From: Rhizophagus irregularis
Lineage: Eukaryota > Glomeromycota > Glomeromycetes > Glomerales > Glomeraceae
Length of the DNA stretch: 64,000 nucleotides
Reading direction: 5' to 3'
Assembly: GCF_026210795.1 (NCBI RefSeq)
Contig: NC_089458.1
Location: 124,001 to 188,000, forward strand
Part shown: positions 3,810 to 43,438 of the stretch, in pieces
How the letters are laid out: each line of letters opens with the position of its first letter
Position numbering within the stretch: the stretch's first letter is position 1
Notes under the pieces: model-generated
Seen by the model: the letters and a program-made list of their open reading frames with translations, nothing else
What the model was told of the DNA's origin: nothing
Database searches by the model: none
Translations under genes and position numbers: made by a program

Positions 3810-4020
3810 CACTAGTCGAAAAAGGAATATTCATTCTTAGTAAAATTTGGTCTATATTTAACTAAAATCAAAAATTTGACCTCAATTAGCAATGATCTAT
3901 GATTAGACATTGGTCGAATAACTAACATGCTGGTTGAATGGTCATGTTATGTATTACGCATATCAAAAGTTTAAAAAAGAATCATGCATTCTTTTTTAAA
4001 CTTTTATTCCATCTTTTCCT
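3810..4020 (+). mobile_element. CACTA-type terminal fragment
   Basis: Starts with CACTAGTCGAAAAAGG. The following roughly 200 bases match, in inverted orientation, the sequence inside the end at 7512 (shared blocks include AATGATCTA, GATTAGACAT and AAAGTTTAAAAAAG). It is a left end of the same family. The three bases outside it (TGT) do not match those outside 7512 (ATG), so it may be a leftover or a rearranged end. Confidence 0.5.
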
Positions 4021-4659
4021 CGTCCTTTATTAGCTCTAAAGGTGTGAAAAAAAAAAATTTTTATTATTATTATTTTTTTTTTAAAAATTTTATGTGAGAC
4101 TTCATCTTTTCCTTCCCAGAATGCCAGTCAAAACTATGCACTGGAAATAATAAGGTAAATGGAAGGGGAAGTCAGTTTTTTTATTTTATTTTAATATTAT
4201 GAACGGTTTACTAACTGTTCATATTTTCCATATAGGTTTCGCAGGAAAATGAATGCACTAGTCGAAAAAGGACAATTCGGCCTAAATTTGACCAGGTCGA
4301 ATATAGGTCGAATAATGGTCTAACCTGTGTCAAATTGAGGTCAAATTTTCGGGCGCATTTAGGGTGCCAATCGTCCCAAATTCGGACTAATTATTCGACC
4401 ATTATTTAGGTTTAAATTGACCAATATTTGACCTTAAAACTTTAAGCCGAATTATGGTCTAATAACAACCCATTTATTTATGAATTTATTTTGATTTTTT
4501 TTATCAAATTTATTAAATAAATGTATTTATTAATGCTTAAATACTTTATAATTATATTATTATTATTGCATCTATCTAATTTACAAAAAATATTGCTAAT
4601 TCAAATACAATTCCACAATTACATGATTCATGTATTCGTATATACGAATCTTTGATTGT

Positions 4660-6470
4660 TCTTTAGCAATCCACCCGAACCTATAAAAAAAAGAGAAGAA
4701 CGGTTAGTAACCGTTCATAATATTAAAAAAAAAATAAGAAAAAAAACCAAGATTCGTACTTACTTACGAATCTTTAGTTTTTTCCGTTCTTCAGAAGACA
4801 CCTGAGACACCCGAGACCTAAAAAGAAAAGAAAAGAACGGTTATTAGTAACCGTTCATAATAATATTAAAAAAAAATCAAAAAAATAAACCAAGATTCGT
4901 ACTTACGAATCTTGGTTCTTCTTTTCCCGAAGGTCGAAGCCCACTCCACCCGATCCTAAAAAAAAAAAGAAAGAACGGTTATTAGTAACCGTTCATTAAT
5001 ATTGAAAAAAAAATCAAAAAAATAAACCAAGATTCGTACTTACGAATCTTGGTTCCTCTTTTCCCAAAGGTCAGAAGCCCACCCGATCCTAAAAAAGAAA
5101 AGAACGGTTATTAGTAACTGTTCGTAATATTAAAAAAAAAAATTAAAAAAATAAACCAAGATTGTACTTACGAATCTTGGTTCTTCTTTTCCCCGAAGCT
5201 GGAGTCCCACTCCACCCGATCCTAAAAAAGAAAGAACGGTTATTAGTAAGCGTTCATTAATATTAAAAAAAAAATTAAAAAATTAAACCAAGATTCGTAC
5301 TTACGAATCTTGGTTTTTCCACACAAAAGCCCGCCCGAACCTATAAAAAAAAGAAAGGAACGGTTAGTAAACCGTTCCAAAATGATAAAAAAAATAAAAA
5401 TAAAAAATATATAAAGATTCGTACTGTACTTACGAATCTTTATCTTTGGGTTTTGCGTTCTTCGAAGCCCACCCGAACCTAAAAAAAAAGAAAGAATGGT
5501 TAGTAAACCATTCGTAATAATAATAAATAAAAAGATTAAAGATTCGTACTTACGAATCTTTGGGTTTTCGTTCTTCGGAAGCCCACCCGAACCTATAAAA
5601 AAAGAAAGAATGGTTAGTAAACCATTCGTAATAATAATAAATAAAAACAAAAATTAAAGATTCGTACTTACGAATCTTTGGGTTTTCGTTCTTCGGTAGC
5701 CCACCCGATCCTAAAAAAAGAAAAGAACGGTTATTAGTAAACCGTTCATATATTAAAAAAAAAACAAAAAAATTAAACCAAGATTCGTACTTACTTACGA
5801 ATCTTGGTTTCTTGGTTTTCCTTTCTTCGGAAGCCCACCAGATCCTAAAAAAAAGAAAGAACGGTTATTAGTAACCGTTCGTAATATTTTTTTTAAAAAC
5901 AATAAAAAAAAAATCCAAGATTCTTACGAATCTTTGGAGATTTCCCGTTCTTCGGAACACGGAAGCCCACCCAAACGGCCGAACCTATAAAAAATAAAAG
6001 AACGGTTATTAGTAACCGTTCGTAATATTTTTTTAAAAATAAAAAAATCCAAGATTCTTACGAATCTTGGAATTTTCCCGTTCTTCGGAACACGGAAGCC
6101 CATCCGATCCTAAAAAAAAGAAAAGAACGGTTATTAGTAACCGTTCATAATATTAAAAAAAAATAAAAAAAATAAGATTCGTACGTGAATCTTTGGGTTT
6201 TCGTTCTTCGGAAGCCCTCCCGAACCTATAAAAAAAAATACAAGAACGGTTAGTAAACCGTTCGTAATAATAAAAAAATAACAAAAATAAATTAAAGATT
6301 CGTACTTACGAATCTTTGGGTTTTCCGTTCTTCGGAAGCCCACCCGAACCTAAAAAAAGAAAGAACGGTTAGTAAACCGTTCATAACGATAATATTTAAA
6401 AAAAACAAAAAAAAAAAAAAAAAATATTTGATTCGTAATACAATACTTACGAATCTTAAAATACTCTTTC
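4660..6470 (-). repeat. Tandem array of about 14 exon/intron-like modules
   Basis: Units of roughly 115-130 bases repeat head to tail. Read on the minus strand each unit has a pyrimidine tract ending TATAG or TTTAG, then a 39-50 base block starting GTTCGGGTGG or GATCGGGTGG, then GTAAGTAC, then about 45 AT-rich bases, then a TACTAAC-like motif about 20 bases before the next AG. The donor lies in the centre of an inverted repeat with arms AAGATTCGTA and TACGAATCTT. The TACTAAC motif lies in a second one with arms GAACGGTT and AACCGTTC. Several short ORFs across the array are by-products of this repetition. One commonly seen exon-like block is exactly 39 bases, while others are 45, 49 or 50. Confidence 0.85.
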
Positions 6471-6960
6471 GGAAATCCATCTCCTTTCGTTTTACCCTTC
6501 CCCTTTCGTTTTCCCCTTTCGTTTTCCCCTTTCGTTTCACCCTTTCGTTTTCCCCTTTCGTTTTCCCCTTTCGTTTTCCCCTTTCGTTTTACCCTTTCGT
6601 TTTCCCCTTTCGTTTTACCCTTTCGTTTTCCCCTTTTCTTTTCCATTTTCCTTTTCCCCTTTCTTTCATTTTCCTTTTCCTTTCTTTCGTTTTACCCTAT
6701 CCCTTTCATTTTTAGCTTCCCCTTTCGTTTTAGCTTCCCTTTCGCTTTTAGCTTCCCTTTCGTTTAGCCTCGCTTTTAGCTTCCCCTTTCGCTTTTAGCT
6801 TCCCTTTCGTTTTTAGCTTCCCCTTTCGTTTTAGCTTCCCTTTCATTTTTTCGCTTCCTTTCTTCCCGTTTTTTAGCTTCCCCTTTCATTTTTTCGCTTC
6901 CCTCATTTTCGTTCCCCCTCTCGTTTTCTCTTCCCCTTTCGTTTTCACTTCCTCTTGAAA
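6470..6960. repeat. CT-rich minisatellite
   Basis: Short units of the type CCTTTCGTTTTCC and CTTTCGTTTTAGCTTCC repeat with drift. On the minus strand this is a GA-rich tract that runs directly into the first module of the array (GGATTTCCGAAAGAG...), and it can be read as a K/G/E-rich peptide there. It is probably a slippage-expanded tract, not a conserved coding region. Confidence 0.8.
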
Positions 6961-7060
6961 CCTATAAAAAAACAAGAACGGCTGGTAAACCGTTCTATAA
7001 TATTAAAAAAAATCCACTATTCGTAATAATACTTACGAATCTCAGTCACGTCTTGGATCT
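6960..7060 (-). repeat. Isolated degenerate module of the same family
   Basis: A lone copy carries the AACGG...CCGTTC arms and an imperfect donor palindrome around TACTTACGAATC. It is separated from the main array by the CT-rich tract. Confidence 0.5.
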
Positions 7061-7189
7061 ACAAAAGCAAAAAACGAAAACGTTAGTAAAACGTTTCGTT
7101 AAAAAACAACAAAATAAAATTTGAAGGTATATATATACCTTGAAATAGGAGTCCGGCCTTCTAAATGGGCGTCTTGGACCAGCAAAAGA

Positions 7190-7320
7190 AAAAAAACTGA
7201 GGGATGAAGGGAAAGGGGAAAGGGAAAAGGATAAGAAAAGTAAAGGGACGAAGGGAAGTAAAAGGAGGGAAAGAGGAACGAAGGGAAAGGGGAAGGGGAA
7301 GAAAGAAAATTAAAAAAAGT
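7190..7320. repeat. GA-rich minisatellite, short block
   Basis: AAGGGAAAGGGGAAAGGG-type purine repeats lie on the plus strand, opposite in orientation to the CT-rich block at 6470-6960. They are followed by the inner part of the CACTA-like right end. Confidence 0.65.
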
Positions 7321-7515
7321 TTAAAAAAGAATGCAATAAGATGATCCTTTTTTAAACTTTTAATACGCGTAACGTGTAACGCGTAACGTTTATTCAACAA
7401 TGTTGAATATATGTCTAATCGTAGATCATTACTAATTGAAGTCGAATTTTTTAATTTTAGTCGAATATAGGCCGAATTGTATTAAGGCCGAATATTCCTT
7501 TTTCGACTAGTGATG

Positions 7516-8065
7516 GGCAAGAGAAAACAAAAGGGGAAGTGAAAATGAAAGGATAAAACGAAACTGAAAGGGAAGGGTAAATGAAAGGAAAAGGATAAAA
7601 CGAAAGGGATAGAATAAAAATGAAAAGGAAAAGGAAAACAAAAAAGAAAGAGGAAAAAGAAAGGAAAAACGAAAAGGTAAAATGAAACTGAAGGGAAAGA
7701 GAAAATGAAAAAGAAAAAGGAAAATGAAAGAAGGTAAAACGAAAGGAGAAGAGTAAAAACGAAAAAAAAAAGGGAAAATGAAAGGGGAAAGGTAAAACAA
7801 AAGGAAAAAGTAAAACGAAAGGGAAAGGGAAAAGTAAAATGAAAGGAAAAGTAAAATGAAAGGGAAAAGTAAAACGAAAGGGAAAGTAAAATAAAAGTAA
7901 AAGTGAAGGGAAAAATAAAAGTAAAAGGAAAAATGAAAGTAAAGGGGAAAACGAAAGAGAAGGGTAAAACAAAAGGGAAGGGTAAAACAAAAGGGAAAAG
8001 TAAAACAAAAGTGAGAGGGAAAGCGAAAGTGAAAGGGAAAACAAAAGGGAAGGGTAAAACAAAAG
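7516..8065. repeat. GA-rich minisatellite, long block
   Basis: Purine-only stretches of the type GGGAAAAGTAAAACGAAA continue for about 550 bases just outside the CACTA-like right end. One frame reads as a K/G/T repeat peptide (KGKTKGKGKTKG) that enters the module at 8080. The arrangement GA tract then module mirrors the minus-strand arrangement at 6470. Confidence 0.75.
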
Positions 8066-8074
8066 TGGATGGAT

Positions 8075-8180
8075 TTCTGAAGAACGTACTTTTAAGGTTC
8101 GTAAGTAGTATTATATTACAAATCTTAAATTTTTTTTTTTTATTATTATGGAACAGTTTACTAATCGTTGTTACCTCTAG
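8075..8180 (+). repeat. Plus-strand exon/intron-like module
   Basis: The block ending AAGGTTC is followed by GTAAGTAG, a T-rich stretch, a TTTACTAAT motif and an AG at the CTCTAG near 8180. It is the plus-strand counterpart of the array at 4660-6470. A matching acceptor half (AACGGTTTACTAACTG ... ATATAG) lies at about 4200-4236, just left of the CACTA-like element. Confidence 0.5.
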
Positions 8181-8394
8181 TTACATGTAGAGTTACAACT
8201 TACTACGCCAAAAGATCATGTGGAAGATTAGAATCTACTGTGACTGTGCCAAGCCGACCTAACCGCAGCCTATTTAGCCTATTATTTTTATTAGATTTAT
8301 TATATTGATTATATTTAATATAATTGATATAATTATTTTATTTATTAGTATATTTAATTTATTTATTATATTTATGAATATTTTTATTTATAAC
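8181..8394. other. AT-rich spacer
   Basis: Simple AT sequence (TATTATATT-like runs). No gene seen. Confidence 0.5.
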
Positions 8395-8559
8395 TCCCGG
8401 ATATCAGTATTCTCCTTCAACAATCATGTGATCAGCACAATCAGAATTTTATTTTTTTTATTAAGATCGCAAAATTAAAATTTATTAAAATAATAAAGAG
8501 ATGATTCTAAAAATTTTATTATATTTCTGAACCAATTTTTATAACATTATACAAATGCT

Positions 8560-8755
8560 AAAGCAGACACAGGTTAAAATGCTAAAAATCGGCAAAAAAA
8601 ATGGCGCGAAAAGCAGTGGCTATTCTTGGCTATTCTTGGCTATTCTTGGCTGTTTTTGGCTATTTACGAATTAACCTATACTATTTGTAAATAGTTTATA
8701 CAAATTTGTGAATAGTTTATGCGATTTGCGCCATTTTTTTTGCCTATTTTTGATT
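8560..8755. repeat. Imperfect inverted repeat with short tandem repeat
   Basis: Arms around AAAAATCGGCAAAAAAAATG and its complement CATTTTTTTTGCCTATTTTT flank a short tandem run of GGCTATTCTT (three full copies plus partial ones). It is a small foldback element or subterminal structure of the MULE. Confidence 0.45.
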
Positions 8756-8783
8756 ATTTGACGTGTGAGAAAAAAAATCATCT

Positions 8784-11365
8784 TTATATGTTTTCTTTGT
8801 CATTGCAAATCTCGTCTTCTAAGTTAGGCTTATTTTTCAAAGGATAATTGCGTGAATCATGATACCATGACTTACATAACGAACATTGCCTTTTATTCCT
8901 CTTTTTTAACCCTTCTGCAGGTTCATCACAATGATTTGACTTAGCATATTTCATGGTATTGTTTTCAATTGCTGATAAATATCTTTTATTTGATGGACGA
9001 CCTTTACCCTTATGTTATAGTGGATTTGAAATCATAGAAGTATTAATTTCTTGATTTGTATTTTGTTCAATATCGTCTAAATTTTCATTTCGTGTAAAAA
9101 GTACAAGTTTTTGCTATTCTATAAATCTTTGCAGAAGATCTTCAAAAATTTCACCAGAATTGTTTATGATTGCTAGATTTATAACTTTCTTACATAGCCC
9201 AAATCTATGTCCATAAAATGCTTTTTTTGAATTTTTAACAGGTGAAGCATAAACATTTTGTCCACGAATATTTTTTAATGCTTGAAAAGTTTCAGTTGAA
9301 AGTAATTCTTCTTTATTTTGAATTATACAAATAGATGATTCTTGCATTTCATTCATCAATATGAGACCTTCTTTAGAATACCAACGTGATGGTATTAATT
9401 TTATATTAAATAGTGCCTTTTTAGAATAAAACATCACGGCAAAAAAATGCCTACAAACAAAACCAGCGTAGATCAAATGGAGACATGTGCAATAATATGA
9501 ACCATCACCAAGTAATACAATAAACTGTGAATGATTTGTTGTAGATTGAAGATGTTTCACTTCCCAGATTTCATCGATATAACTCCCAAAACAATCTTCT
9601 AAAGCCATATCAAGTAAAGTCTGCGGTTCTTCATAATCATCCTCTATAAAACCAACATCATGCTGATTTGATTTCTAAATTGATGATATAATGATGTTTT
9701 AGTTATTAATCAGTAAATTAAAGTGGTAAATAGTAGAACAAAATTGATTACCTGCTGAATAACATTTCTACTATCCTGTAATACTACTCTATAAAGTAGG
9801 CTCTCTAATATTTGTTTTCACTGTAAAGCCAATGAATTTGACGTAAGAAATCTCTTACAAACATCATTAATATCTTTAAAAATGGTATTAGAAACATGAG
9901 GAAGTCCTGCTAAAGGATTTATATTACAGAATTCTTGCAATTTTGCATATTTGACTTCGTCCTTTAGTCGTAATTCAATTCCTGTATGAAGTTGACATAA
10001 TGAACTTCCTGAATTTGCTTCCAGTTTTATAACTTGATTCATGCTTTCAACACGTTGTGTTGAATGAGTATTTGCTGAAAAAGTGCATTTGGTGAATGCA
10101 TATGCCCAACATTCTTTAGTTAGATATAATACACGTTCAAAATAACTTTGAACTTCTGGATATTTGTTCATTAGCTCCAGCCACCAAATATTAAAATCTA
10201 AAACCATAAATGAATTACGCATAGCATAAAAGTCTGTAATGAAAGAATTCCATTCATTGCGAAGCTTCTTTTTAAGTTTTTTAACCAAATTTTGTCAAAT
10301 ATGAAAAGCACAATATCATACAATTGTATTAGGATATTGATTGGCTATTGCAACCTGCATTGCAGGATCCGCATCAGTGAAAAGTATGACTGACTAAAGA
10401 CCTCCTGTAGCATTCTTCGTTTATTCTAAAATCCATTCATATGTTGATATTGTTTCATCACAAATTACAGCTGTTGCTACTATTCGATTTCGATGATCAG
10501 AATCAATTACAATAAAAACACTTAAAGGCATCAAATATTTGTTTATTTTACATGTGTTGTCATTTATAATGACATCGTGAAATCTTTTCCAAAACCTTTT
10601 TTGATCAGGTGACATCCAAAAAATTTTGGTAAGCCTATTATCAATGCCTTCGAAATCTACTTTAAAATACCAATTAGGATCTTCCTGCTGTAATTTTATC
10701 AGACGATTAAGCAAAGTTATAGCATCATTTTTTATTTGAGCACTGTCCTTGAATTTTCTTATTGCATCATAAAGACTTTGACGATAGATATCTTGATTAG
10801 GAAACTTATTACGCAAGATTCTTTTCAAAACAGTAGCACCTAAATGACATTCTTGAACATAAAATCGAATTTCTTTTATAATATTATCAGGGATTTTATG
10901 AGATGATTGAGTAAATTGTTGAAGATCTTTATTAATATTCATTACATGATTGTGTTCTTCAATAAATTTGTTAACAAAAACCAAATTTGGACATTTACGA
11001 TATGAGGCATTTAGTGTAAAATTACACTTAATACAAGCTGACTTTTTGTCTTGATTTTGTGTGGGATCTAATTTTTTTTTTGCTTCGTACTTGCCACCAT
11101 GTCTGCATTTATATGTTTTTCGTGACCAAACACCTTCTTCTTTTTCAGCTCGAACAATCTTTGTTTCAAATTCCAATTGAGTAGAGTACTGGTTCAAACA
11201 TTGTTCAAGTACTTCAAAGGAAGTAAATGATTGTCTATTGTAAAGAATTTTTAAGCAGCTGTCTTCAGGTTTATCATCAAAGCACTATTTTCAGATAAAT
11301 TATCATTAATCTCAATAAAGGAGTCATCAAATACATTTTCATCAAGAGTAAGGTCAATTATCTAA
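8784..11365 (-). pseudogene. MULE transposase, FAR1-type, broken
   Basis: Order on the minus strand: an N-terminal FAR1-like zinc domain (CRHGG ... CIKCNF ... HNHVMN), then the MULE DDE core with first Asp in IINDNTCKINKY, second Asp in LFTDADPAM and Glu in STQRVESMNQ. Then comes a SWIM zinc finger CTCLHLIYAGFVCRHF and a C-terminal CxxC-type knuckle (RQCSLCKSWYH) close to the stop at 8784. Several stops and frame breaks occur: after YEWILE (10421), before the block starting at 10288, near 9818 and near 9114. One break at about 9680-9750 looks like a real intron. The enzyme would cut and paste elements in the nucleus, but this copy is dead. Confidence 0.8.
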
Positions 11366-17100: not shown

Positions 17101-18050
17101 AAACCTCTAATTTTTTTAAAATATTTTTATAATATAGTTATATAATAGTATGATATAATAACAATATTAAAACAATAAAAATAAAGATAATTTAAAAAAC
17201 GGTGTCAAAATAAAATGCTTAAACAACATAAAAACAATATGATAAAAAGAATAATGAAAAAAAATTATTATTTTATGTTAATTGCAATACTAATACAATA
17301 CTAATATAATACTAATACAATACTTTTGTAAATTGTTATTTATAAAATATTGTATAAATATATATATATTTTTTACAATATCTTTATAATATTATTTTAT
17401 GATATTTTTTTTTGTCCGTCCAATTTTTTCTCAGATCACAGATCAGTCACGAATAGTATTATAAAAATAATTATCATATGGGCATTATACGATCTTTTTT
17501 TTAAAAAATCAATAATGATTACCGCTTCCATATTTTTTTTTTAACTTTTGTAAATTGTGGCAAATTCGGTATAATTAATCTTGGAGGCAAAACATTATTA
17601 CTTGGACAAAAAAAAATGGAATAAAAACTTTATTAAGGACGTCAATGATTTGAACCAATAAGTTAAAAGTCATTAAAGTTATTAATAAATTTACAAATTT
17701 ATATTAATGAACTTTTCTTTATTACAAACGATCTTTAATATACAAAGTGCGAAAAAAAATTTATTTTATGGAGTATCCTGTAAAAAATGTTGTTGTTCTG
17801 TGTTTTAAATTCCAAGGTACGTAATGAATGAATTTATTTATTTCCATATTTTTTTCCATGAATGTATCATTTTCACTAAAAATTTTTTATAGAGTGGTAA
17901 CCGCAATTGCGATTTATCTTTATGAAAATTATAATTCTGAAGAAAAATTACCAAAGAATGATCCTAAATTGAGAAATCAAGTTATTCAAGTTATTCAAGT
18001 TATTCAATGGGTAAATATTTTATTCGCACAAAAAATTTGATTAAAATGAG
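17101..18050. other. AT-rich region with one possible exon
   Basis: Mostly simple sequence. At 17893-18009 a stretch after TTTTTTATAG reads as a plausible peptide (VVTAIAIYLYENYNSEEKLP, followed by a VIQ triplet repeat) and runs towards the modules at 18055. It may be an exon of a decayed gene that contains the modules. Function unknown. Confidence 0.3.
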
Positions 18051-18054
18051 AAAT

Positions 18055-18245
18055 GAACTATGGGCTTCTAACGAATGGAGAACCAAGATTCATAAGAATC
18101 TTGGTTTTTATTTATTTTTATTATTATAGAACGGTTTACTAACCGTTCTTTTCTTTTTTATAGGTTCAGTATCTCAGAAAGGCTTCTGAAGAATGGAAAA
18201 ATCTAAAGTTTCGTAAGTATGAGTACGAATCTTTTGGGGTTTTTT
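18055..18245 (+). repeat. Two consecutive exon/intron-like modules
   Basis: The first module has the exon-like block ATGGGCTTCTAACGAATGG and a mutated donor (ATAAG) inside the palindrome. Then the AACGGTTTACTAACCGTT repeat, a pyrimidine tract and TATAG follow. A second block (GTTCAGTATCTCAG...) ends before GTAAGTATGAGTACGAATC. This is the same family as the main array, here in the plus orientation. Confidence 0.65.
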
Positions 18246-18635
18246 TATTTTTTAATATTATAAGAATGTGTAAAAAATATAAATTTCCCTTCATAAAAAA
18301 TTTTTATTACATAAATAAGATTCTAATACTGTAATTGAGCGTTCTATATTGAAAAGCATTTGGAAGTGAAAGAATAAGGTGGCTCGTTTTGAAGATTCTG
18401 AAGACTAATTAATTTGATTAAAGTAGAAATTTGATTCATTTGTTTTTCATTTTATTTTTCTGTAATACTAAAATTTTTTATTTATTTATTAATACTTAAG
18501 AAAAACTAAAATTGGATTTGCATTTTTACAATAAAATGTCGCAACTAACAATAAAAATATTATTTACTATTCTACTTATTGCGCTTTTCAAAATTGTGCT
18601 ACCCCCTGCAGGTCATCTAATAAAAAAGATTATGA
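18246..18635. other. AT-rich spacer
   Basis: No gene or repeat family recognised. Confidence 0.45.
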
Positions 18636-22355: not shown

Positions 22356-25300
22356 ATGGGCTGCCATCGATCAAAAACATCCCAAAAAAAATTACAAGCT
22401 CGCTATAAGGTCCTAAAAGCTGCTCGTAAATCACAACTTCGTCAACTTGAGGGTGAGTATCACTAGTCGAAATAAGGCAAATCGGAAGTAAGGCAAATCG
22501 GCCAAATTTCAGCCAAATTTTGGATAAATTTTGGATATGATCAATAATCGGCTGACATTCAGCATAACTGATTTGCGGTGCAAAATTCCGATTTCAGATA
22601 TGATCGATAATTGGCTGCATATCAGATAACATTCGGCATAGCCGATTTGCGGTGCAAAATTCCAATATTTATTTCAAATTCCGATATTTGTGCATTATAA
22701 TATTTCGACATTCCGATAATTATATTATATGTAAATTTGACATTTAATAATTCCGATATTTGTATTGTATTGTTTTAACATTTAATAAATTTCGATATTT
22801 GTATTATTTGAAATTTGTATTATTTTGAAATTTAAACAATTCCGATATTTGTATTATTTGAAATTATATGTCATTTCATCAAAATAAAGTTCGAAAAAAA
22901 TACTAATTTCAGCGAATATGAAATTTTCTATTGACTGGATTTACCGCTAAATAGACGTTTAAACTTCTCCTGCCTGAAATTCGGTATTTCGTTGGTATAA
23001 ATCGGCCAAGAATATGATGAACTGGAATAATACAATCGCGGGATTCTGGGTAAAACTCGGTACCCCATAATTCAACATTGCATATTTCGTCATCTCTAAC
23101 TCTGAAATGATACCGAATATTTGATGATTCTGCAGGTTTATACCAGCAAATAAATGCTAGATTATGTTCGGATAACCCATCTGGCAAATTAACGGCATGT
23201 GTAAAAAAGTATTGGACTTGTCCAGGATAGCAATTGATATCACCACTTTCTGTCATAAATTTTGCCAAGATAAATGAGCTTTTTACATGACGTGATGATA
23301 TCGAAGAGCTGAATATTTCAGAACCAATTCGGCACCTTCCAAATTGATTCATTTTAACTTGAACTATTATCGAATCTTCTGCACCCTCTCCAAATGGTTT
23401 CCAAAATTCCATCGTTTCATAGCTCGCCATATAGTATTCAACTATTAAGTCAAGCATATCACTTGACATTACAATATCGTTAAATACTGGTCTGAGCATT
23501 TCGCCCGGAAATGCTTCTTTTCCTGTGGTGGTCGATTCATGAATGTTTCTTGAAGTCAACCAAAATCGCCTCATTTCATCAGCAGAAAATTGGTCAGCTT
23601 CTGATAGAGAGCCAACAGATGGTCTATTACTAATCAAATCTAGGCCCTTTGATTCCACGCCGGAATTAATGATATTACTGATTTGATTATCAAACATCAG
23701 GCGGCACATAATTTCCGGTTCAATTTTCCTTCTGCTATTCGGAAAAGAGCCTAAATTTATTTTAAACAAAAGTTGATAAAAATGCATTATTTTAGAAAGT
23801 AACAAGAATATTTAAAATATTATACCTAGCATGCCATTCATGCGCTCAAAGGAAAAACACCAGAATGTATATAAAGGTCCATAGTCGAGTGAGCATTTAT
23901 ATAAGTGAAGTGATAAATGTAAATTCGGTGTGATTTTATCACGACCGTAATTTTCTTCTATCAACTTCACTAGGTTAATTAGCCTCTGATACGCCTCTCT
24001 CATGAAATCGACTTCTACAATTCGACTTACTGAAATTGAACAAATTCTCACAAAATTCACGAGAATCTTCCGGTCATTCTCAGAAAGATGTTCCCAGAGA
24101 GAGACCGTCATCAGGAAATTATATAGTGCGAAAAGTTGCGCAAGTTTACACATCATAATATTTCGTAAGCTTCCAGACCCGCCGCAAGTTTGCGTAAGCG
24201 TAATATTTTGTAACTTTTTAAAATATTTCGAAATATTACGATATGCAAAGCTTCGTAATTTTACGATTTGTAATATTCCGTAATTTTGCGGTTCGCAATA
24301 TTTCGTAATTTTACATAATATTTCGTAAGTTTTCAGACCTGCCGCAAGTTTGCGTAAGCGTAATATTTTGTAACTTTTTAAAATATTTCGAAATATTACT
24401 GTATGCAAGGCTTCGTAATTTTACGATTCGTAATATTCCGTAATTTTACTGCGTAATACTTCGCAACTTTTTAAAATATTTCGAAATTCTATGATGCGTA
24501 ATGTTCCATAATTTGACGATTCGTAATATTCTGTGATTTTACACAACTTAATATTTCGTAATATTTCAAAATATTTCGATAAATAATACTTCATTTTCTG
24601 TACTATAAGTTTATATAATGTATGTTTTATTAGATATAATCATAAAAAATTACAAGTATTTATTAATATATACAGAATACATAAAAGTAAAAAAGAGAAA
24701 GAGTAGAGTAACAATATTATTAGACGTAAAAAGAAGAGAAACAGCTATAGTAACGTTAGTATTAGATATAAAGATAAAAGAAATATTGTTATTATTGTTA
24801 GTATTAAGGTAAAAAGAGTTAAAGAAACAGTAAAAAGAGTAAAAGAAACATGGATATTATCGTTAGTATTAAAGTACAAGTAAAAAGAAATAAAGGAAAC
24901 GTAGATAGTATTGTTAGTATTACGACATAAAGTAACAAAGAGGTAAAAAAAAATGCGTTAATATTAAAATAATTAGTATTAATAAATAAATATTTCTATA
25001 CCTGCAAAGTAATTGAACAAAAGAATAAAGAAATAAAGAGAAAGGAAAAAATAAACATGTTGTTAGTATTGTTAGTATCGTTAGTATTAAAGTACAAGTA
25101 AAAAGGAATAAAGGAAACATGGATATTATTGTTAGTATTACAATACAAAATAACAAAGAGGTAAAAAAAAATGAAAATAATTAGTATTAATAAACAAATA
25201 TTTCTATACCTGCAAAGCAATAAATTATGAAATATATGTAAATATATTGTATATAATTAAAGAAATAATAGAAAGAAGAGACAAAAAAATTAAAAATATT

Positions 25301-28300
25301 GAACAAAAGAATAAAGAAATAAGAAACAAAAATAAATAAGACAAAAACGCGTGCATGATTAAATGATTAAATGATTAAATCACATGCAAGGATCAGCCTA
25401 ATTTGATTGGCCAGAAAATACGATATCGTAAAATTACGGAAATCCGCATTTTAAAAAATCACAGAAATTGTATATGCACAATTACTAAATATTATCCCCT
25501 CGTGATAAATTAAAAATTATCAACACAAACTCAACACAAATTTAACAAATTTAACGAAATTTGGCCAAAATTAACAAATTTTTACCAGAATTATCAACAC
25601 AAATTGAACACAAATTGAACACAAATTTCAGCCACGATTTATTTATGTCACACCCGTGTTGTTAAGAATTAATAACCATTTTATTTATTAAAACTATATT
25701 AATTATGGTAAAAAAAATGCTATTACGTGTGATATATATAAAAAATAATATTTATTTTTTATGCAACCCATAATTCTCTAATAAACTATTTACATACCGA
25801 CCTTCCTCCTCCGTGTTATAAGAGTCAATAGAAAGTATATCATCGTCAGCTATGCCATCATTGGCCACACCATCGTTGGCCGTACCATCGTTGGCCGCAT
25901 CATCGTTAGCCGCACCATCGTTAGGCCTACCATCATTAGTCACATCATCATCAGCCGCACCTGCTCTATCGTCAGCTGCTCTATCACCACCATCGTCTAC
26001 ATCATTACCATCATGAGAATCATCGTCCGAATGTGTAAATTTATCCCTATTTTCCAACTTTTGCTAAAAATCAATAAATAAATAAATAAACTGTAATTCA
26101 AATAATTCACATTTTGCAAATTGTAAATTAAAAACTTACTAAGTTGTTGATTATCTTTGACTTCATTATACTTTCGCTCATTTGAATGTTTTGATTATTA
26201 GGATTTAAGTACGTTTCACATATGCTAATCGCATACGCTATTTGTGTTTTTGAGGGATTTTTATTTTCTTTTCGCAACTTATCGAATTATCAGCGACATA
26301 TATGTCGTAGGTTGCCCATCTTTAACCTTTTTAAATAGGTTGTTGTAACATCTTTTCACCTCCGCCTTACTCTTCCATTCCTGAATCTTTGACGGACTAG
26401 CCTGAGTGTTAATAGACGGTAATTTATGCCCAGTCGCTTCGAAAACAGAATACATAACGTCTTTAACTCCTGTAGACGTGAACGTCCCTCGTATGCTTCT
26501 ATGTTGTTGTACTAACTATTAAAAAAAAATGTTAGTATGAAATTTAATAAAATTCATAATTGCTTTAACTTACAGTCGGGGCAATTTTTTTTTCGAAAAA
26601 AATAATCCATTGATTTTTTTTGAACTGGCGCGTAAATTCCGGATTTTCGTCTTTTAAATATTTTTCGGTAGCGAGTTTGTACTTTCGTCTTGCGAAGGAT
26701 AAACAAAATTTTCAAATAAAATTTTCGACACCTTCTTAACGAGCTCCTAATCAAACGAGGTTAGCATTTCAGGTTTACATTAAATAATATTCATCTTTAT
26801 TACCTTTACATACTCCGGATCTATTGTATTATTATTATTTTTGTTATTATCGTTGAGCTTTTTTTCTATGCTCGAGAGACGGGTTTCGAGATTTTTTTGT
26901 CCGGTGATAAGAACTTCAAGCTTAGAAATTATCTGCGAATTGGTTCTTAATAGTTTTTCTATTGTTTTTTTATTAACTTTAACAATAAAATATAATTTAA
27001 CTATATATTATATAATTTCTTTTATAAAGAATATGATACATATTATGTCAGTATATACCATCAACACTATCATCGGATATTCTCACTCGCTTCTCAGCTT
27101 CGCTACCCTCAGTACTACGTTTTGAAAATCTTTTATTATCGTCAATTCTTCGTTTTCGCCACGCTTTGTAGCCATTATGATAATAAATTTGAAACGAAAA
27201 TATGAGAAAAAGGAGGAAATATATGAGAAAAAAGAGGAAATATATGAGAAAAAGGTGAACTAGAAAATTCGAAAAGGATGAGGAAAAAGGGGGAAATACA
27301 TGAATCAGAAATTCAGAAAAAGGAGGCAAGCTGTCATAAGGTAATTTCCGCCATTCTATACTAAAAAGAAAAAAAACTTGCGAAATATTGCGAAAAATGG
27401 ATGAACTAATGCGAAATATTACGAAAAATGAATGTACTAATGCAAAAATTTTGCATCGTGATATTACGAAAAAATATTGTAACACTTTCATAAGAGAACT
27501 TTAAAAAAAAACTCTCGTAAAAGCACATAGTACAATCGAAATATTAATCAAATCCAATTTATAAAAAAATAACATGTTACACATGTTGGGGCTTTTATGC
27601 ATGGAAAAAAAAAGTTGCAGCCAGTGAACTCATTTGGCTGATCAGATTGATAGTGATCTTGAGCGCTTATAACCTGATTATCGCATAAATTTGTGGCTGA
27701 TCATCCGTCCATTATTGTAAAAGTAATTTGCCGTGTTAAGCCAATAAATTTGCGGCTGATTATCAGATGATTAGCCGATTGAATAAGCCATCCGAATTCT
27801 TACAGCCCGTTACAGCAAATTCAAAATATGCGAAACACTCAGCACTTTTGCTGTCAGATTCACTTGGCAGGTTGCCGGCAAATTGAAATAGTAAATAAAA
27901 TAATAAACAATATTTATATGGTACATCATAGACTTGTTACATTTATTTTTAGATTTGCCAATCCACGAACTCGGCAAGTTCCCGACAGCAAAATTGCTGA
28001 GTGTTTCGCATATTTTAAATTTTGCTATAATGCGTAAAATTGCGAATGATTCCGCGATATTAGCCACCAGATTCTTACAGCCAGTTCCATTTATTAATGC
28101 GTAAATTTGCGTAGTCGTGTCTATTCAAATAACTCAATCAATTGTAATCCATTCAATTAATTCATTAAATTTTTACAATGAATTTGCAATATAATTTTAT
28201 TAGCACACATAATCTCATATAAATTAAATAGTGAATTGATACTTTTCATCAAATTTGACGCGTTAATTTAGTAACATGAGTTTCAAATGCCCCCTTTGTA

Positions 28301-31300
28301 TACGAATATTCAGTCAACGCTTTGCATATACTCAACACGCCCAAAAATGCTTAAAAAATGTAGAAGTAGAAGTAGAAGATGATGATGATAATAATGATAG
28401 TGAAAAATATAGCAGTGAAATGGATACAAGAAGTAATCTAAGTAGTGAATATGAAAATGATAAAGTTGAGGTAATTATGTTATTCCAGATTATTCTTTTT
28501 AAAGAAAAAGTTCAAATTATACTAACTCATTTTGGTTTATAATTTTAGGTGAATGATGATAATAATGTACAAAATATGTCATTTGACAGTATTGGAAGTG
28601 CAATATCAGAGATGAGCCTTGAAGATAGTAACTTTGAAAATATATTAGATTCATCTGAAGAGCCTGAAATTTTTGAAGAACCCAAAAATCTCAATACCAA
28701 AACTTGCACAGAATTTCCTAATGATGCTTATAAAGATCTAATGTTATTAGTAACGAAATATAAAATAAACAATAAAGGTGGTAATGAAATAATACGTTTT
28801 TTTAATAAACATTCAAATCTTACAGAATCACCATTACCAAAAAATATCGAACAGGGACGAGCATTTATGAGTAATATGAAGTTTTCTAATTTAGAATTTA
28901 GTAAAGTTCTTATAACAAAACATAAAGATAAAGATTATTTTCTTTATTATCAAAACTTAATACAGTGCATCAAAAATATCTTAACTGTTCCTGACATAAC
29001 ACAAAATTTTGCGCTATCTTACGAAAACTATGAGGTAAATAGTAAATATTAGTTAATTCAATAATTTAAATAATATTTATTTTAATTTATTTATATTATT
29101 TTATAGTATAATAGAGAAAGTATTTACAGTGAACAAAACACTGGAAAATGGTGGAAAACTACGCAAGAATCCTTACCTACTGGTTCCAAATTATTATCAA
29201 TTATTTTATATTCAGATGCAACAACTACAGATACATTAGGAAAAAGTCAATTGCATCCAATATATATTACATTAGGTAATATCCCAATATGGCGTCGTAA
29301 TAAACAGGATGCAAAGCAACTTTTGGGATATTTACCAATTTTAGAAGCTGCAAATAAAGATCTGGTTCGTGATACCTTTCATAAATCTTTACGTCATTTA
29401 CTAGAACCTATTATTTTATTAAAAGATGGTATAGACCTTTTTATAAATAATGAAAATACCTGGTTTTATCCTAGAGTTTCAACTATTATTGCAGATTGGC
29501 CGGAGGCCGCAAGTTTTTGTTTAGTTTATAAATCCTCCAATTCAAACTTTCCATGTCACTCCTGTTTAGTTAAAAGGGAAAATCTTGCAAATATAGACTT
29601 ATCGGTTAACGATGTAATACTAAGAACTCGCTGATGAAATGCGTAAACATTTTGAAAATGATACACAAAGATCTGTTTGCATAGAATCTGTACATAATTT
29701 TTTTTGGGATTTACCGTAAGTATGCAAAAGTAGAAATAATTATAATAACATATATATCTATTAATTATAAATATTTATATTATCAAGGAATATAAATATC
29801 TACTTGGCTACTGTTCCTGACAGAATGCATCATTTAGATTTAGGTTTATTTCGTTATCAAATTATCTTCACGTGCGATATCTTAAAATTGCAACATGTTA
29901 ATGGTAATAAATTAGTTGAAGAAGTAGATCGCCGTCTAGCAGCAATCCCACGTTTTCCCGCCATTAAAATTTTTTCCAATGGACTGCAGTCAATTGCAAG
30001 ATTAACTGCTAATGAATATCGAAGTTTGATGAAAGTCATGATATTTGTTATTGATAATTTATATGATGAAAATAACAATGAAGTAGATAATTTTGTAAAT
30101 AATGATGATCTTACGAAATTGTACGAATATTGGAATGAAATGTATATTTTAAGTAGATATGAAGAATTTAGTGAAAGTGACTTGGAGAAATTTAATGTAT
30201 GTATTAAAATTTTAGTAAAATTGAAAATTTAAATTAAATAAATTAAATTAACATTTAAGTTTTAGAATGCAATACATAGATGGGCCCGGATGTTTGTCAA
30301 GGCTTTTAAATTTGTTTCTCCTTCCAATTTGAAGTTACCTAAATTGCATTCATGGGTTTATCATATTATTGACTCAATACGATCTTATGGCGCAATAAAT
30401 GGCTATACTACAGAAACTTACGAAAGTCTTCACAAATATTTCGTTAAAATACCCTACCGAATTAGCAATAAAAAAGATGTCGAACCTCAGATTTTACGAA
30501 CTGTAAGTATTTGAAAATTTTATTTATTGTATATATTTATTATATAACTTAAGATGGAAATTAAATTAATAGATAAAACGTCAAGCAATATCTATTAGAA
30601 TGTCTCAACATTCAGTGAATCCGGCAAAAACACCTCGCACTTGTAAATTTTCTGCAAGACTCTTTGAATTCTCTTTACAAGATGCAAATACATTTTTTAA
30701 TGAAAAAAAAGATTCCGTAGACAATAAAATGCAGACTGGTTTTGCTAGATTTATAAGTTGTCTGGATTCATATCTAGATTTACTTAATGGTTTCACAATT
30801 ATTGGTGAAACCCGAATAAACATATACGGATCGGTAACACTGGAAAATGGTGCCATAATGCGTGCCACAAACAGGTATCATAATAAAGTATGGTTTAGCG
30901 ACATAGCTATTTCAATGGATTCTGAAGAATCAAATGATTATATATCAGACAAAGGACTTTGTTATGGACAGGTATTTTTCCAATTTATGTAATAATTTAT
31001 TATAAAAGTATTAATAAATATTTATTATTTATAGGCCTTATTGTTAGCAGAAGTATTAACAGACCCACCGCTAAATCTCGCATTAATTCAATGGTACGAT
31101 TTTAAATCTAAAAGGAACCCATATTTATATGGATGTCCTCACTTAAAATTGATAGAATTATATAACTTTGTAGCTATAGAGTCTATACATGGTGTCGTTC
31201 ACATAGTACCCCGATTTGATAAACAAAATGAATATTTCGTAAATAAATATATTTTTTAGTCACTTGATATAGGAGTTTTGATTTATTTTAATAAAATTAT

Positions 31301-34300
31301 ATCCTTAAAAGAATTTATGGTCACGTTTTCCATATCATAAATAAAATGCAGATTTATTTATTTAATTATTAACAACATGGGCGTAAATCGTGACTGAAAT
31401 TTGTGTTCAATTTGTGTTAATAATTCTGGTAAAAAATTTGTTAATTTTGGCCAAATTTCGTTAAATTTGTTAAATTTGTGTTGAGTTTGTGTTGAATTTG
31501 TGTTGCGTAATTTTTTATTTATCACAAGGGGATGATATTTAGTAATTGCATGTACGACGTACAAGATTTTTTTTATGATTTTTTTAAGAAATGTACGCAA
31601 AATATTTAATCAGAATATAATTGTTTTATTTTTAAATATGATATATTGATGATTTTTTTTTAAAAATTCAATAGAATGTGCTAATAATAAATTGTTTTAT
31701 TTTTAAATATAATATATTGATATTTATATTTAAATAACCAAAACATGTACATGATTTTTAATTATTTTTAATTGAAATCAAACTAAGATTTTTTTTAAAA
31801 AAAAATTAAAATAAATTAAGTGATTTATATCTATATTTAGAATCATGATATTTATATTTAGATAATCCATATCCGCATGAGATTTAATTAATATGTTTAA
31901 TGATGAAAAGTTTAATAAATTAAATTTTAATTGAAACGAGAAATAAAATCAAACCAAAGAGGTATTGTTCAAATTTTATTTAAAGTGACATTTTACGACT
32001 TTCTTTCAAATTTTTACTCATCCCAAAATCAAATTATAAAAATAAAATCAAATCTAATAATGCCTCGCCAAACACGTCGTCGTTCCTATAACGTCCATTG
32101 GAACTGGGCTATGATGGACGAACTTGTCGACATACGCCGCGACAGAAACCGCGCCTACCATAATATTAATGGTAAAAGCCGCCATGATTTTTGGGACTCT
32201 GTTGCCAATAGGTTCATATGACTAATATCTATAATTTTCTTTAAAAAAGAATTTAAATTCAAATTAACCAATCCATTTAATTGAATCAGAATAAATAGAA
32301 TATTTCGAACGAGGGTTTCCGGGCAACAGTGCAGCCAAAAGTGGAGGAACCTCGTCAGGGATTACCATGTAAGTAAATAAATAAAATTACATTCATTTAA
32401 ATTAAATGTATTTACCGAATATTCAAACTGATTTTGATATTTAGAACTATGTCCTTTATCGTAATGGTACCCCTGATCGGCCTGGGCGGCGGCTGTGGAC
32501 GCGTACCGGCCAAAGATATTATCGTGAATTTAGAACGAGATTTTGGGAGAGGCCGGGTAATTATACTATAATAAAATTTTATAATTAATATTACATTCTA
32601 TTTTACGTTCACATTTTAAATTTGATAAATTTGATCAATTTTAGATACGCGTGACGATCGTAGGAGAAGGAGAAACTTACCTACGTATCGTAGAAGATAA
32701 TTATTTTTATTTTTTTATTTATTAAGTGAGTAGCTAGGCCCAGTCCGTACCAAATATCGGCTGGAGACTCACGTTTTTTTTGGGCTGTAACTGATACTGA
32801 CGTCCACGCCGTACAGCCTGAGTACTATTTTATAAAATAGTAGCGAACAAGTATCAAATGTATATTTTTTTATTAAGTTATAATAAAAATTAGAATTTAC
32901 TTTAATTTTTAACATAAAAATTGTAAATAATAAAAAATTCGTAAATAAAAATAAATTTGCTTTCCCAAACTTAAAAAAAAAGGTGTTTATATAAAAGAAA
33001 AGGTGTTTATATTATTTTTGATTATTCAATAGTATCGCATGCCCCTTGTATACGTTCTACTGCATACGCAGTTTACAATCTCGTAAATTTTCGAAACGGA
33101 ATATTACGCAGGTTTACAGTCTCGTAAATTTTCGAAATATTTCAACCGTAATATTACGCAGGTTTACAGTCTCGTAAATTTTCGAAATATTTCAACCGTA
33201 ATATTACGCAGGTTTACAGTCTCATAAATTTTCGAAATATTTTAACCGTAATATTACGCAGATTTACAGTCTCGTAAATTTTCGAAATATTTCAACCGTA
33301 ATATTACGCAAGTTTACAGTTTCGTAAATTTTCGAAATATTTCAACCGTAATATTACGCAGGTTTACAGTTTCGTAAATTTTCGAAATATTTCAACTGTA
33401 ATATTACGCAGGTTTACAGTTTCGTAAATTTGCAGAATATTTTGACCGTAATATTGCGTAAATCTTACGATATTGTAAACTTACGTAATATTTTAACCGT
33501 AATATCACATAAATCTTACGAAATTGTAAACTTACGTAATATTTTGAAATTTTTCGAAATATTATGCCATAAACTTTCATAAACTTACAAAATCATAAAC
33601 TTACGCAATTTTTCGCGCTATAAAATTTCCTGATGGTTGCATATATTGTAAAAAATATTCGCCATTGATCCGCAGTAAAATTTGAAAACCCATCTCCACA
33701 ATCGACTTTTCCCGGGATTCGACCCAAGTCAGCTGGAACTTTAAATTCATCCATTTTTTTCTGAACTGTTTTCAAAATATGTGTTGTTAATACGCCATTT
33801 TCGATCCAAAGTCTTCTTACAATCCATTTTGTGATGCCCTGAAACAAGCAGTGCATCGGGTCGATTGTAATGAACCGAATTGGATCGAAATATGGTAGAC
33901 GCAATAATTCGGACCATCTAACTTCAGTTTGCTTTACAAATCGTTTTCTTGCTGCGTCCGAATTACAGCGTCTCCATCCTATAGCATCTTGACGATGTTG
34001 AGCCGAATCACGGCAAGTAAACCATTCGTCCATTTCATTTATCCCAGCGAAATTATGCTGCCGATTTTCATAATTCGCCTTCTTTTCGCATCTATGACAC
34101 GACACCAAAGCGGAAATATGTCCGCAAATTTTTCTTGCAGCCGGTATGTCACATGAAACAAGAATCAGAGCTGCGCAAATTCTTTTTCCTTCTTGACATT
34201 CATACATTTGATTTAATGTCACTCCTTCCCAAAGTGACTTCAACTCATCAATGATTGGCGCCAGATAGTGATTAATCTTATGTAAACTTACTTCATCTGG

Positions 34301-37300
34301 GCCGGGTAATAAGCCAAGAATCAAGATATTATTGCGCTTGAATCTGACATTCCTCGGAAGGTTACCGATTGCAGCGTATATTACTCCAGTGCTGTGGATT
34401 GTGCCATCGAAGGGTTGAAACCAATCCAAATTCAAAATCAATCTGAGGTGCGAATCAGCAACATCAGATCGGAAAAAAATATTTGAACTTTCATCTGTCG
34501 TTTCTTTAAAAGTTTTCCAAACTTCACCATCGTATATATCAGTTAGGATATTATCGAAAGTTTGACGATTTATCCAATGCCTTAGAGAATTTTCAAAGTT
34601 AAGTTAACGATACATTGCTTCCAATTGCTGTTTAATACTCACAAACAGAAATAATAATTCAGGTTTGATTGAAATTTGGTTATTTAACAATGTTGTTTTC
34701 TGTGCCAAAGGTGTTTGGCACAACCTTAATCTTCTAGTTATCGAATTAGGAAATTCAACATGGCAACACTTCATGATGGCAGGTTGCTCATTTTGGAGAA
34801 AACTTTTTATTTCCTGTTTGTTGTATAATTTGTGGCATTTGGAACACGTCACAAAACTATGAAACTGGTCTTCAAGATTAAGGGCTTTTCTTGCTAGATA
34901 TAAAGTGTCAGGAAATGTGTCAAAATCAGGACTACCGATTTCTGTTAGAACAAGCTTCAAGAATTTTATCAATGAATCTGTAGCTGTTTCTGGTAAGTTA
35001 AACCTGGTTCAGAAGCTCATAATCCATAATAATATCCATAAGAACCGGTTATTTATTGATTGTTCAGTATCAGAATCTTGAAATGGTTCGAAAGGTGGAC
35101 ATGAATAATCTTCAAAAATTTCGTGGTATTCGTCATCATTGGATGGTTCATTATCGGATGATTCATTTCTATCATCGATATTTGCATCTTCCTCCGTAGT
35201 ATATTCAGAAGATTCAGAAGATTTATCATCTACTATATCTCCTAATTCAGCAATTATAACTGGTCGAACATATTTTCTTGATCGTTGTCTACTAGGCAAT
35301 TCAGCTTCCGATTCTCTCATTCGTGGTTTATCTGATATTGAGGCACTTTCGTATGGTTCGTCACTAGGCAATTCAGCTTCATCAGTTAGATGTACTTCTG
35401 TTCTTTCTGAATCATCATCCTCTGAATCTTGGTTAATTTCATGGATAGTTTTCGTACAAGGATTTACTAATCGTCCATTACATTCAGAACAATTACATAC
35501 AACTAACCTTCCAATACGTGATGATGTAGGATAAGATTGATTTGAAGATTCTTCGTCAATTATATTTGACACTGATCTGGTTCTTTGTATACGTGATGAA
35601 GGTATGGCATGAGGTCTAGAATCTGATTCTTCATTGAGTATACTTGATAATGATCTTTTTCTCGTCATTTTTGTGAACGTTTTTCGAAATAAAGTTAATT
35701 GTTAATAATATATCAATAATATCAATATAATTCGTTTAAAATACTTAAATTAGAATAAAATCATCAACTGCGTCGATGTAATACTAAATTTATTAAAATC
35801 ATCAATCTACACTTAAATTATAAATATAAATCATTCAATTAATAATATTGATAATAAAATAGACTATTCGATCGATCAGTATGATGGCGAAAGTTTCTTA
35901 AAGTTTAATTTTTTAAACAACTTCATTTTTTCTCACCAACCTTTTTCTTTTTAGAGTTTAATCTTTTTAGAATTTAATTGTCGATATAATACTTAAATTA
36001 TATTAAATTTATTAAAATCATCAACTATCACTTAAATTATAAATATTACATGATGTTGATTTGCGTTCAAATCGTTCGATTAATAATATTAATAATAAAA
36101 TAGACTATTCGATCAGTATGATGGCGAAAGTTTCTTAAAGTTTAATTTTTTAAATAAAACTTCATTTTTTCTCACCAACCTTTTCTTTTTAGAGTTTTAA
36201 TGTCTAATACTCTTTGCAACCAAAAAAAAAATAAAAAAATAATGAGCCAAAATTCGCAACCAAAAAAATAATGATCCAAAATAGAAAAAATAAAAATACC
36301 GAAAAAGGTTTGGCTAGTGATAATTGAAATAAAACGATTACTAACATCAATAAAAGTTCGTCCAATATCCAACAAGCTGTTGAAGGAACTGCCACGTCAA
36401 TTCATGAGCGAGCTCAAACTACTAACATCAATAAAAGTTCGTCCAATATCCAACAAGCTGTTGAAGAAACTGCCACCCCAATTCATGAGCGAGCTCAAAC
36501 TACTAACATCAATAAAAATTCATCCAATACTCAACAACCATCTGCTGCGCCAAGTCATGAACGAGCTCAAAGTGTAAAAGAGAAATATAAAAATCTTCAG
36601 CTTCCAGATTCGTCCAATACTCAACCACTATCTGCTGCGCCAAGTCATGAACGAGTCCAAAGTGCAAAAGAGAGATATAAAAATCTTCGGCTTCCGGTCA
36701 GATATCAAACTAATGAACCTACCTGCGATGATGATGATGCATCAACAGGTCTGTATCGTGTATATATTGTTAGTTAGATTTAGTATTTTTTTTTTTTGTT
36801 AATTTTACATTTTTATACAGAGAATCGGAGATTATCTCAAGAAGTATCTGATTTGCGTGCGAAGTGTTTACAGTTAGAATGATGAAATAATGAATTAACC
36901 AAACATACAGCTGTCGTTGCCACTGAAATAGCTCGCTTACGAGAAGATAACGAATTTCTTGCTGGTGTTAACGCAGAATTCAGTTCTGAAAATAACGACT
37001 TGAAAGAAGAGGTTAACAAATTAAAAACGAAACTCGAACAATACCAGATACGATCATCATCTGAAAGCCTTGATGTTATTGATGTTCCAGAAGAACGGTT
37101 AGCAAAACGGTTCAAATCGGATGGGTCAAAAAAAGTAAAGAAAACGGTACACTACGCCAAAAATCAATCAAAAGAAGAACAAGAAGAACAACGTGAAAAG
37201 GAGGCGAGAGTTTGTAATTTTGTAATTTTAGGCAGAATTGTACAGTCTTTATACTTTTATACTAATTGTTCCGATTTAAAGATTGAAATGAAAATGATCC

Positions 37301-43232: not shown

Positions 43233-43438
43233 TATTTTATTTTTCTGTAGTCATTTCAATAAATAAATTCCAAAGTTATTATATAAAATGTTGAGAATAT
43301 ATGTAGGTCTTTTTAACAGTTGAATTGGTTTTTCAAAAGGTCTGATTTCTTCTAATGGATCCTTCCAATTCACTCTTTTAGTACTAATTTCGTTAGAGGG
43401 TTTTCTAAAATTCACACTCTCCCCCTCCTGAGATGCGT

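Follow-up and report, generated by a model that had tools for sequence, protein, structure and literature searches.

The transposon that carries the main array

The window analysed here is a stretch of 64 kb (124001–188000 of contig NC_089458.1) from the arbuscular mycorrhizal fungus Rhizophagus irregularis. Its central feature is a non-autonomous CACTA-type transposon of 3,257 bp (4256–7512) whose gene-like content lies on the minus strand. Comparison of the two ends reveals terminal inverted repeats (TIRs) CACTAGTCGAAAAAGG at 4256–4282 (plus strand) and 7486–7512 (minus strand), the inverted ends reading CACTAGTCGAAAAAGGA, and an ATG target-site duplication flanks the element on the left (4253–4255) and on the right (7513–7515). 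At the corresponding place of L009, a locus related to the surrounding sequence, an uninterrupted AAAATGAATGGGCAAG is found. This paralogous empty site shows that the insertion of the element made the 3-bp duplication. A TIR beginning with CACTA and a 3-bp target-site duplication are the defining marks of CACTA transposons. The window element has both and is assigned to CACTA/CMC-EnSpm on these grounds. No transposase is recognised inside it.

Read along the minus strand, the element contains a first intron-like unit (7059–7138; donor palindrome GTATATATATACC, branch palindrome AACGAAACGTTTTACTAACGTTTTCGTT), a second one (6962–7036) with a branch hairpin whose core is changed to TACCAGC, and a purine-rich exon-like block (6451–6961) built from a tandem repeat of about 13 nt, AAAACGAAAGGGG. 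There follows an array of 14 intron and mini-exon units with donor and branch hairpins (4646–6450), whose last exon-like block occupies 4646–4680. An earlier note on this sequence had reported about 14 minus-strand units with a set of splice signals, which agrees with our count. That the array is bounded by a transposon, and that a second array of the same design lies at 45114–45968, goes beyond what the note described.

Elements of this kind are numerous. The TIR word, with at most one mismatch, has 103 copies genome-wide and none in the reversed control. Identical 3-bp flanks are present in 19 of 22 bounded CACTA-type elements, namely 20 whose ends pair in the list of TIR matches, L006 and the window element; the three misses are L021, L033 and L035. 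At least one branch palindrome occurs in all of the 22 except L034. Those flanked by duplications are 1.4–4.3 kb long. A 201-bp marker is found in 11 copies, the window included, at 97–100% identity (40 scored of 268 candidates), and eight aligned copies of the window element diverge by 0.8–4.6%; together, these values indicate a recent spread. In L026, one CACTA copy has apparently inserted into the donor hairpin of another unit, between the flanks AAGTACGAGTAC and TACGAATCTTGG.

Plavaka, a family within the CACTA superfamily, is reported to be prevalent in DAOM197198 and in further strains of R. irregularis (PMC11075540). The window element resembles CACTA/CMC-EnSpm and Plavaka elements in its CACTA-beginning TIR, its 3-bp duplication and its recent multi-copy spread. 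It differs from them in having no recognised transposase and in its interior, which is an array of hairpin-bearing exons and introns. The carrier of the array is an ordinary kind of transposon; what is unusual is its content.

Neighbouring elements in the window

The 4256–7512 element has interrupted an older, outer CACTA-type element on the plus strand. The left end of the latter (3810–4252), with a TIR at 3810 and 88% identity to L009 over 446 bp, contains a hairpin intron of its own (branch at about 4201), and the element continues at 7516–8190 with a purine-rich block and one degenerate unit (8080–8190). Its right TIR was not found within 7600–11000. In the inner as in the outer element, a purine-rich tandem block (6451–6961, with its 13-nt repeat, and 7515–8065) forms the exon-like block which precedes the units.

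Another dispersed repeat with a hairpin unit (18055–18235) lies on the plus strand at 17166–18576; L055 is a copy of it, with 91.6% identity over 1.4 kb. The relatives of the array listed in the earlier note can now be placed: the one at 7000 is part of the array's own element, the pair at 4200 and 8080 lies in the older element into which it inserted, and the one at 18055 is in this other repeat.

A much larger CACTA element of 16.2 kb spans 22461–38619, with TIRs (CACTAGTCGAAATAAGG) near-identical to those of the window element and TAT on both sides. It contains a Transposase_21 frame on the minus strand (33593–34603, E 6.4e-15), and the large element is a possible source of transposase for the window element. 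A Plavaka-type frame in its interior (29107–29631) has several stops and is decayed. The same element also holds tandem repeats at 24154–24579 and 33085–33505. Frames named by eye as those of a Gypsy-like retroelement (zinc knuckles, reverse transcriptase and integrase) lie at 39439–44902, just before the second array. Compared with Rfam, the window has no hit that reaches a gathering score.

Organisation of the array units

On the minus strand, each unit begins with a branch palindrome (GAACGGTT...AACCGTTC or variants of it), which is followed by 12–18 mostly pyrimidine bases and an AG, an exon-like block of 35–57 nt, a donor palindrome and an AT-rich spacer. The first exon bases after the acceptor are 6349, 6225, 6109, 5984, 5844, 5710, 5592, 5478, 5340, 5221, 5088, 4955, 4817 and 4680, and the corresponding blocks measure 40, 39, 48, 57, 46, 39, 39, 45, 36, 50, 45, 49, 50 and 35 nt.

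The signals are less uniform than the earlier note had stated. Blocks of 39 nt, called frequent there, account for three of the 14, and the acceptor TATAG for five, the remainder being TTTAG. The branch word is TACTAAC in six units and TACTAAT in the other eight. Twelve donors read GTAAG, and GTAAGTAC is present in eight; the unit at 6225 is without GTAAG and has kept its palindrome. A scan of all 64 kb for strong-signal candidate introns finds 18, of which 13 lie in the 14-unit array and three in the 45-kb array; 11 of the 18 have both hairpins. The 13 array introns passing this strict scan have donor stems of 7–15 pairs; their branch stems comprise 8–9 pairs in 11 cases, and 3 and 4 pairs in the other two.

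The units are widely dispersed: GAACGGTTTACTAACCGTTC with at most one mismatch has 252 matches genome-wide, and the reversed pattern none. The branch palindrome has no exact match in the viral contigs. By eye, the exon-like blocks of the window units, and those of the loci L042 and L044, seem to hold a short hairpin too, with TTCCG...CGGAA in one family and CCTGG...CCAGG in the other, so that a unit may have three hairpins.

Placement of the splice signals within the hairpins

Candidate introns were picked on four signals alone, the donor, the branch, the pyrimidine run and the AG, and palindromes were ignored in the choice. Among 511 candidates from all fetched non-control loci, with the window excluded, 373 form a donor hairpin with 8 or more Watson–Crick pairs, 311 a branch hairpin with 6 or more, and 235 both. 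The reversed sequences yielded five candidates, none with either hairpin. With so few candidates, this control chiefly tells us that such signals seldom come together by chance, and it is the controls with shuffled arms which address the hairpins themselves. Nine chaperonin regions gave no candidates and no such modules in this selection; a strict intron pattern gave one candidate there, and seven in antisense.

The fetched loci include overlapping or repeated ones (L012/L020, L016/L022, L008/L026, L010/L029 and L002/L040 among them), and exact duplicates were removed only in a set of 422 unique candidate introns. In this set, 298 introns have the donor hairpin (8 bp or more) and 259 the branch hairpin (6 bp or more). 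The loop covers at least three bases of the donor hexamer GTAAGT in 269 of the 298, and part of it in 18, the donor lying in the left arm of the stem in the remaining 11. Similarly, at least two bases of the branch core YTAAY lie in the loop in 246 of the 259.

That the palindromes exceed chance, as had been proposed, is borne out by the shuffled controls. For branch sites of the fetched loci, picked with no regard to the palindrome, 175 of 228 unique contexts have stems of at least 6 pairs; shuffling one arm lowers this to about 11. By a lenient measure, donor stems of at least 6 pairs are present in 215 of 234 introns from CACTA loci (78 with the exon side shuffled) and in 26 of 32 from hAT loci (11 when shuffled); stems of this leniency are also found in 8 of 19 ordinary donors.

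These ordinary introns were defined as gaps between profile matches in the chaperonin regions, where 24 gaps were tried; 19 introns resulted, and 16 of them entered an accessibility comparison. The donor hexamer is predicted to be unpaired with a mean probability of 0.59 in the window element (16 introns), against 0.34 for the 16 chaperonin donors (p 0.0006); in the hAT-type locus L042 it is less exposed (mean 0.47, n=10). The earlier note had called the units ‘hairpin-gated’. The hairpins indeed sit on the signals, but ‘hairpin-displayed’ appears to be the better term, given the position of the loops over both cores and the predicted exposure, with the qualification that few control donors were compared and that the hAT-type value is intermediate. 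Furthermore, TACTAAC is present in none of the 19 chaperonin introns (L046–L054), whose pyrimidine tracts look weak; the introns of the transposons therefore have stronger signals than these ordinary ones.

A second array in an unrelated transposon class

The second tandem exon–intron array occupies 45114–45968 on the plus strand. Its exons (GAAACCTGGACG...ACTATG) are unrelated to those of the first and its design is alike, with a branch palindrome GGGAACGTAATTAACGTTCCC. In both families, the part from branch to acceptor consists of GAACG, a loop and CGTTC, followed by a pyrimidine run. The unit of the second array has 308 matches in the genome, and many of the matches listed are in tandem. 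The right TIR of the element which carries it lies at 46140–46157 (plus strand); the left end was not found in the window.

All five complete related elements fetched have termini reading TAGTGCTC...AGCACTA, flanked by perfect duplications of 8 bp (GCTACAAT, GTTGAAAG, TATAAATA, CTGTAGAT and ATTAAGGT), between which they measure 1.6–1.8 kb. An 8-bp duplication together with a TIR beginning TAGTG or CAGTG is the mark of hAT transposons. The TIR of these relatives begins with TAGTG, and the second array belongs to a hAT-like family. The right end of this family has 85 copies in the genome and none in the reversed control. L042 and L044 differ from known hAT elements in their interior, a tandem exon–intron array, of which by eye the first unit has a donor only and the last an acceptor only. 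A complete transcription unit with several introns would be expected to have such end units. The surprising part is that two unrelated classes of transposons hold alike, hairpin-centred exon–intron arrays.

Other carriers and the question of mobile introns

The units are not confined to these two families. Dispersed repeats at separate places (L061, L063, L066 and L013), 97–99.8% alike over about 2 kb, hold the same unit together with introns which have other stems, and so do L005 and L007. In these introns the branch reads AAGAAACG-AACTAA-CGTTTCTT and the donor ATGTAAGTTTCG-TTT-CGAAACTTACAT. The first four loci contain several introns with long donor hairpins (AAGTTTCGAAG...CTTCGAAACTT), and the borders of the repeat were not found. 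In the introns with other stems, the donor arm has its partner further downstream, within the intron, whereas in both arrays the partner is upstream, in the exon. That an alike layout is reached from either side favours selection on the fold at some time. Overall, one layout is realised by several stem types: GAACGG/CCGTTC, GAATGG/CCATTC, GAACGT/ACGTTC and GAAACG/CGTTTC.

The earlier note had offered two origins for the array, introner-like elements or an exon amplified with its intron, and the second is the one that fits. For the first, the intron itself would be mobile and make new introns in host genes. Many similar copies do exist genome-wide, and fungal introner-like elements and stwintrons are described as having an inverted-repeat structure (PMC8469720). 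The target-site duplications, however, surround the whole CACTA-type or hAT-type element, and the ends of the introns are not insertion borders. As the duplications belong to the whole element, an introner-like origin is not supported. Twelve loci were taken as apparent lone copies, from the 100 listed of the 252 GAACGGTTTACTAACCGTTC matches; nine of them in fact hold 2 to 10 units, and L055, L060 and L062 have one. No host gene was recognised around these 12, a small sample, mostly multi-unit, viewed without a protein-library scan. The nine sampled chaperonin regions are free of such modules. We consider it highly improbable that the units are introners.

Symmetrical stwintrons are nevertheless the nearest published inverted-repeat introns that we found (PMC8469720). 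They and introners share with the present units the combination of repeated spliceosomal-type introns and inverted repeats. The terminal inverted repeats of stwintrons, according to the same text, are 45–55 nt long and span the intron, whereas the units of R. irregularis have two short, separate hairpins, on the donor and on the branch. Moreover, there it is the intron which inserts into genes, in stwintrons without duplications, while here the duplications are those of larger mobile elements.

Maintenance and decay of the folds

Are the folds maintained by selection? The earlier note had suggested, from complementary changes in the arms such as GAATGG with CCATTC, that they are, or that they were copied as such. 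In the array, this compensated pair is present in two of the 14 units (5592 and 5478), and two others (5221 and 5088) have a one-sided break. In an arm-swap comparison with fixed register and intact inner core, the outer arms of the branch match their own partner slightly better than a swapped one (0.576 vs 0.557, z 2.4, 79 unique), and those of the donor do so more distinctly (0.648 vs 0.583, z 3.8, 48 unique). The donor arms fall into the subtypes CCAAG/CTTGG, AAAG/CTTT and TTAAG/CTTAA, with GGTTC/GAACC in some units. Independent events of covariation are few, the branch change from C-G to T-A being seen in 7 of 79 unique arm pairs. The corresponding hAT values (z 4.0 for the branch, 1.9 for the donor) come from tables containing plainly non-branch rows and are not used as evidence.

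Recent change tells a different story from this modest covariation. At five C-G positions with good pairing (branch 5 and 8; donor 4, 5 and 8), one-sided changes comprise 41 breaks and 26 wobbles, which gives no sign of present selection at the RNA level. Recent copies change mainly at CpG, and among eight of them CpG variation is 0.19–0.20 in the stems, compared with 0.24–0.31 in the element termini; the hairpins are thus little or not protected. For R. irregularis, strong bimodal CG methylation is reported in a published methylome (PMC8647823). The case for folds maintained at present is accordingly weak, and we read the data as an old design whose present copies are mostly decaying. Diversifying selection was considered for the exon bodies (102 variable of 492 sites) and the purine block (109 of 505) of the eight copies and rejected; the apparent excess of variation is partly due to misaligned shuffled units (L026, L030) and partly to CpG change.

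The palindromes might instead act in the DNA, as binding sites of a transposase or as cruciforms which promote the gain and loss of units, the splice motifs being secondary. Repeated motifs bound by the transposase are known from plant CACTA elements. The changes tolerated in RNA only, the wobbles, are not enriched, which is in line with a role at the DNA level. Such a role nonetheless leaves unexplained why a polypyrimidine tract and AG come after each branch palindrome of the window array, and why the loops are centred on GTAAGT and YTAAY. To us, it is an unlikely account of the palindromes.

Coding capacity and splicing

In a spliced model of the window copy, one frame of 287 amino acids runs through all 14 array exons, a length reached by none of 300 dinucleotide shuffles. 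Frames in close copies are unequal in length and in random-frame p: L022, 275 aa (p 0.000); L026, 262 aa (p 0.014); L029, 281 aa (p 0.082); L036, 147 aa (p 0.030); L030, 151 aa (p 0.000); L006, 202 aa (p 0.290); L039, 159 aa (p 0.342). In L036 and L030 the simple gene model left an intron in place. Exon lengths are not kept at multiples of three (remainders 0, 1 and 2 in 123, 68 and 101 of 292 unique exons), and of 32 hAT-type exons 28, 29 and 18 contain stops, depending on the phase.

A long frame of this kind could suggest a captured gene for a secreted repeat protein, an SP7-like effector with one repeat per exon. SP7-like proteins of R. irregularis have hydrophilic tandem repeats (PMC11333574), and the full-length frame is beyond the reach of the shuffles. 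When the array exons alone are considered, though, 14 of 300 shuffles reach the observed length, and a frame of 287 aa is found in antisense to the spliced model as well. Frames rotate between units, other close copies have shorter frames, and the hAT-type exons have their stops. Finally, the repeat-ending motif Y[KR]Rx[AP]x[AP], which PMC11333574 gives for the family, is absent from the 287-aa frame. We therefore rejected the likeness to SP7-like effector genes, which stops at the organism and the hydrophilic repeats and lacks the motif and a conserved frame; that the array derives from such a gene is very improbable.

Processed copies were searched for with two junction patterns, one per family, each of which fixes one type of exon end and exon start, so that variants could escape. 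Neither has a match. This bears on a more serious alternative: an unspliced palindrome minisatellite inside a transposon, in which the splice-like words are relics of one captured intron, copied along. Internal tandem repeats are frequent in non-autonomous elements. The lack of matches to the junctions and of clear protection of hairpins or signals in recent copies agrees with it as well. On the other hand, the coupling of donor, branch and hairpin recurs in the hAT-type family, whose exons are unrelated, and also in repeats built on other stems. The intron-like signals are also stronger than in the 19 ordinary introns, none of which contains TACTAAC. We regard this reading as the less likely one.

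A model of the array and its implications

Our preferred reading is that the array is probably a gene-like unit's exon–intron body, amplified internally within a non-autonomous transposon of CACTA type, and that it is putatively spliced. The minus strand would be transcribed, and the spliceosome would remove the units as many short introns. In most hairpins, the apical loop would contain either the core that pairs with U1 (AAGT) or the one that pairs with U2 (CTAA), so that these signals may stay accessible in an AT-rich transcript in which ordinary donors tend to pair. Unequal exchange between units would gain and lose copies, and most of the present copies may be methylated relics decaying at CpG. 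With an open frame through the spliced array, a basic repetitive protein is possible as the product.

A broader reading is more speculative, and we put it forward tentatively. The units may represent a structural class of spliceosomal introns whose short hairpins present the cores for pairing with U1 and U2 in their apical loops. At least two unrelated classes of DNA transposons would carry and spread this class, and it would have been amplified into tandem splicing arrays. Such arrays might serve the element through variably spliced RNA or through engagement of the spliceosome. In Arabidopsis, splicing is reported to be associated with an unpaired state of the RNA immediately before the 5′ splice site and at the branch site (PMC7784297). 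There it is a feature of ordinary genes, while here it would be a repeated design in transposons. A literature search, judged by titles and the openings of abstracts, gave no description of hairpin-displayed tandem splice arrays in transposons. The structure of introns is mostly treated as something that hinders splicing, or as regulation found here and there.

These elements offer introns in the hundreds, near-replicates with a fixed layout and differing stems, loops and motifs, and they constitute a natural library for the effects of hairpins on splicing. Since the tandem amplification of exons and introns is tied here to mobile elements with clear borders, the growth of a splicing array can be traced copy by copy. 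If the units are unspliced, they would be a rare case of palindromic satellites which mimic introns in two classes of transposons. If the broader reading is true, the structure-guided recognition of introns would be a selectable trait of mobile DNA.
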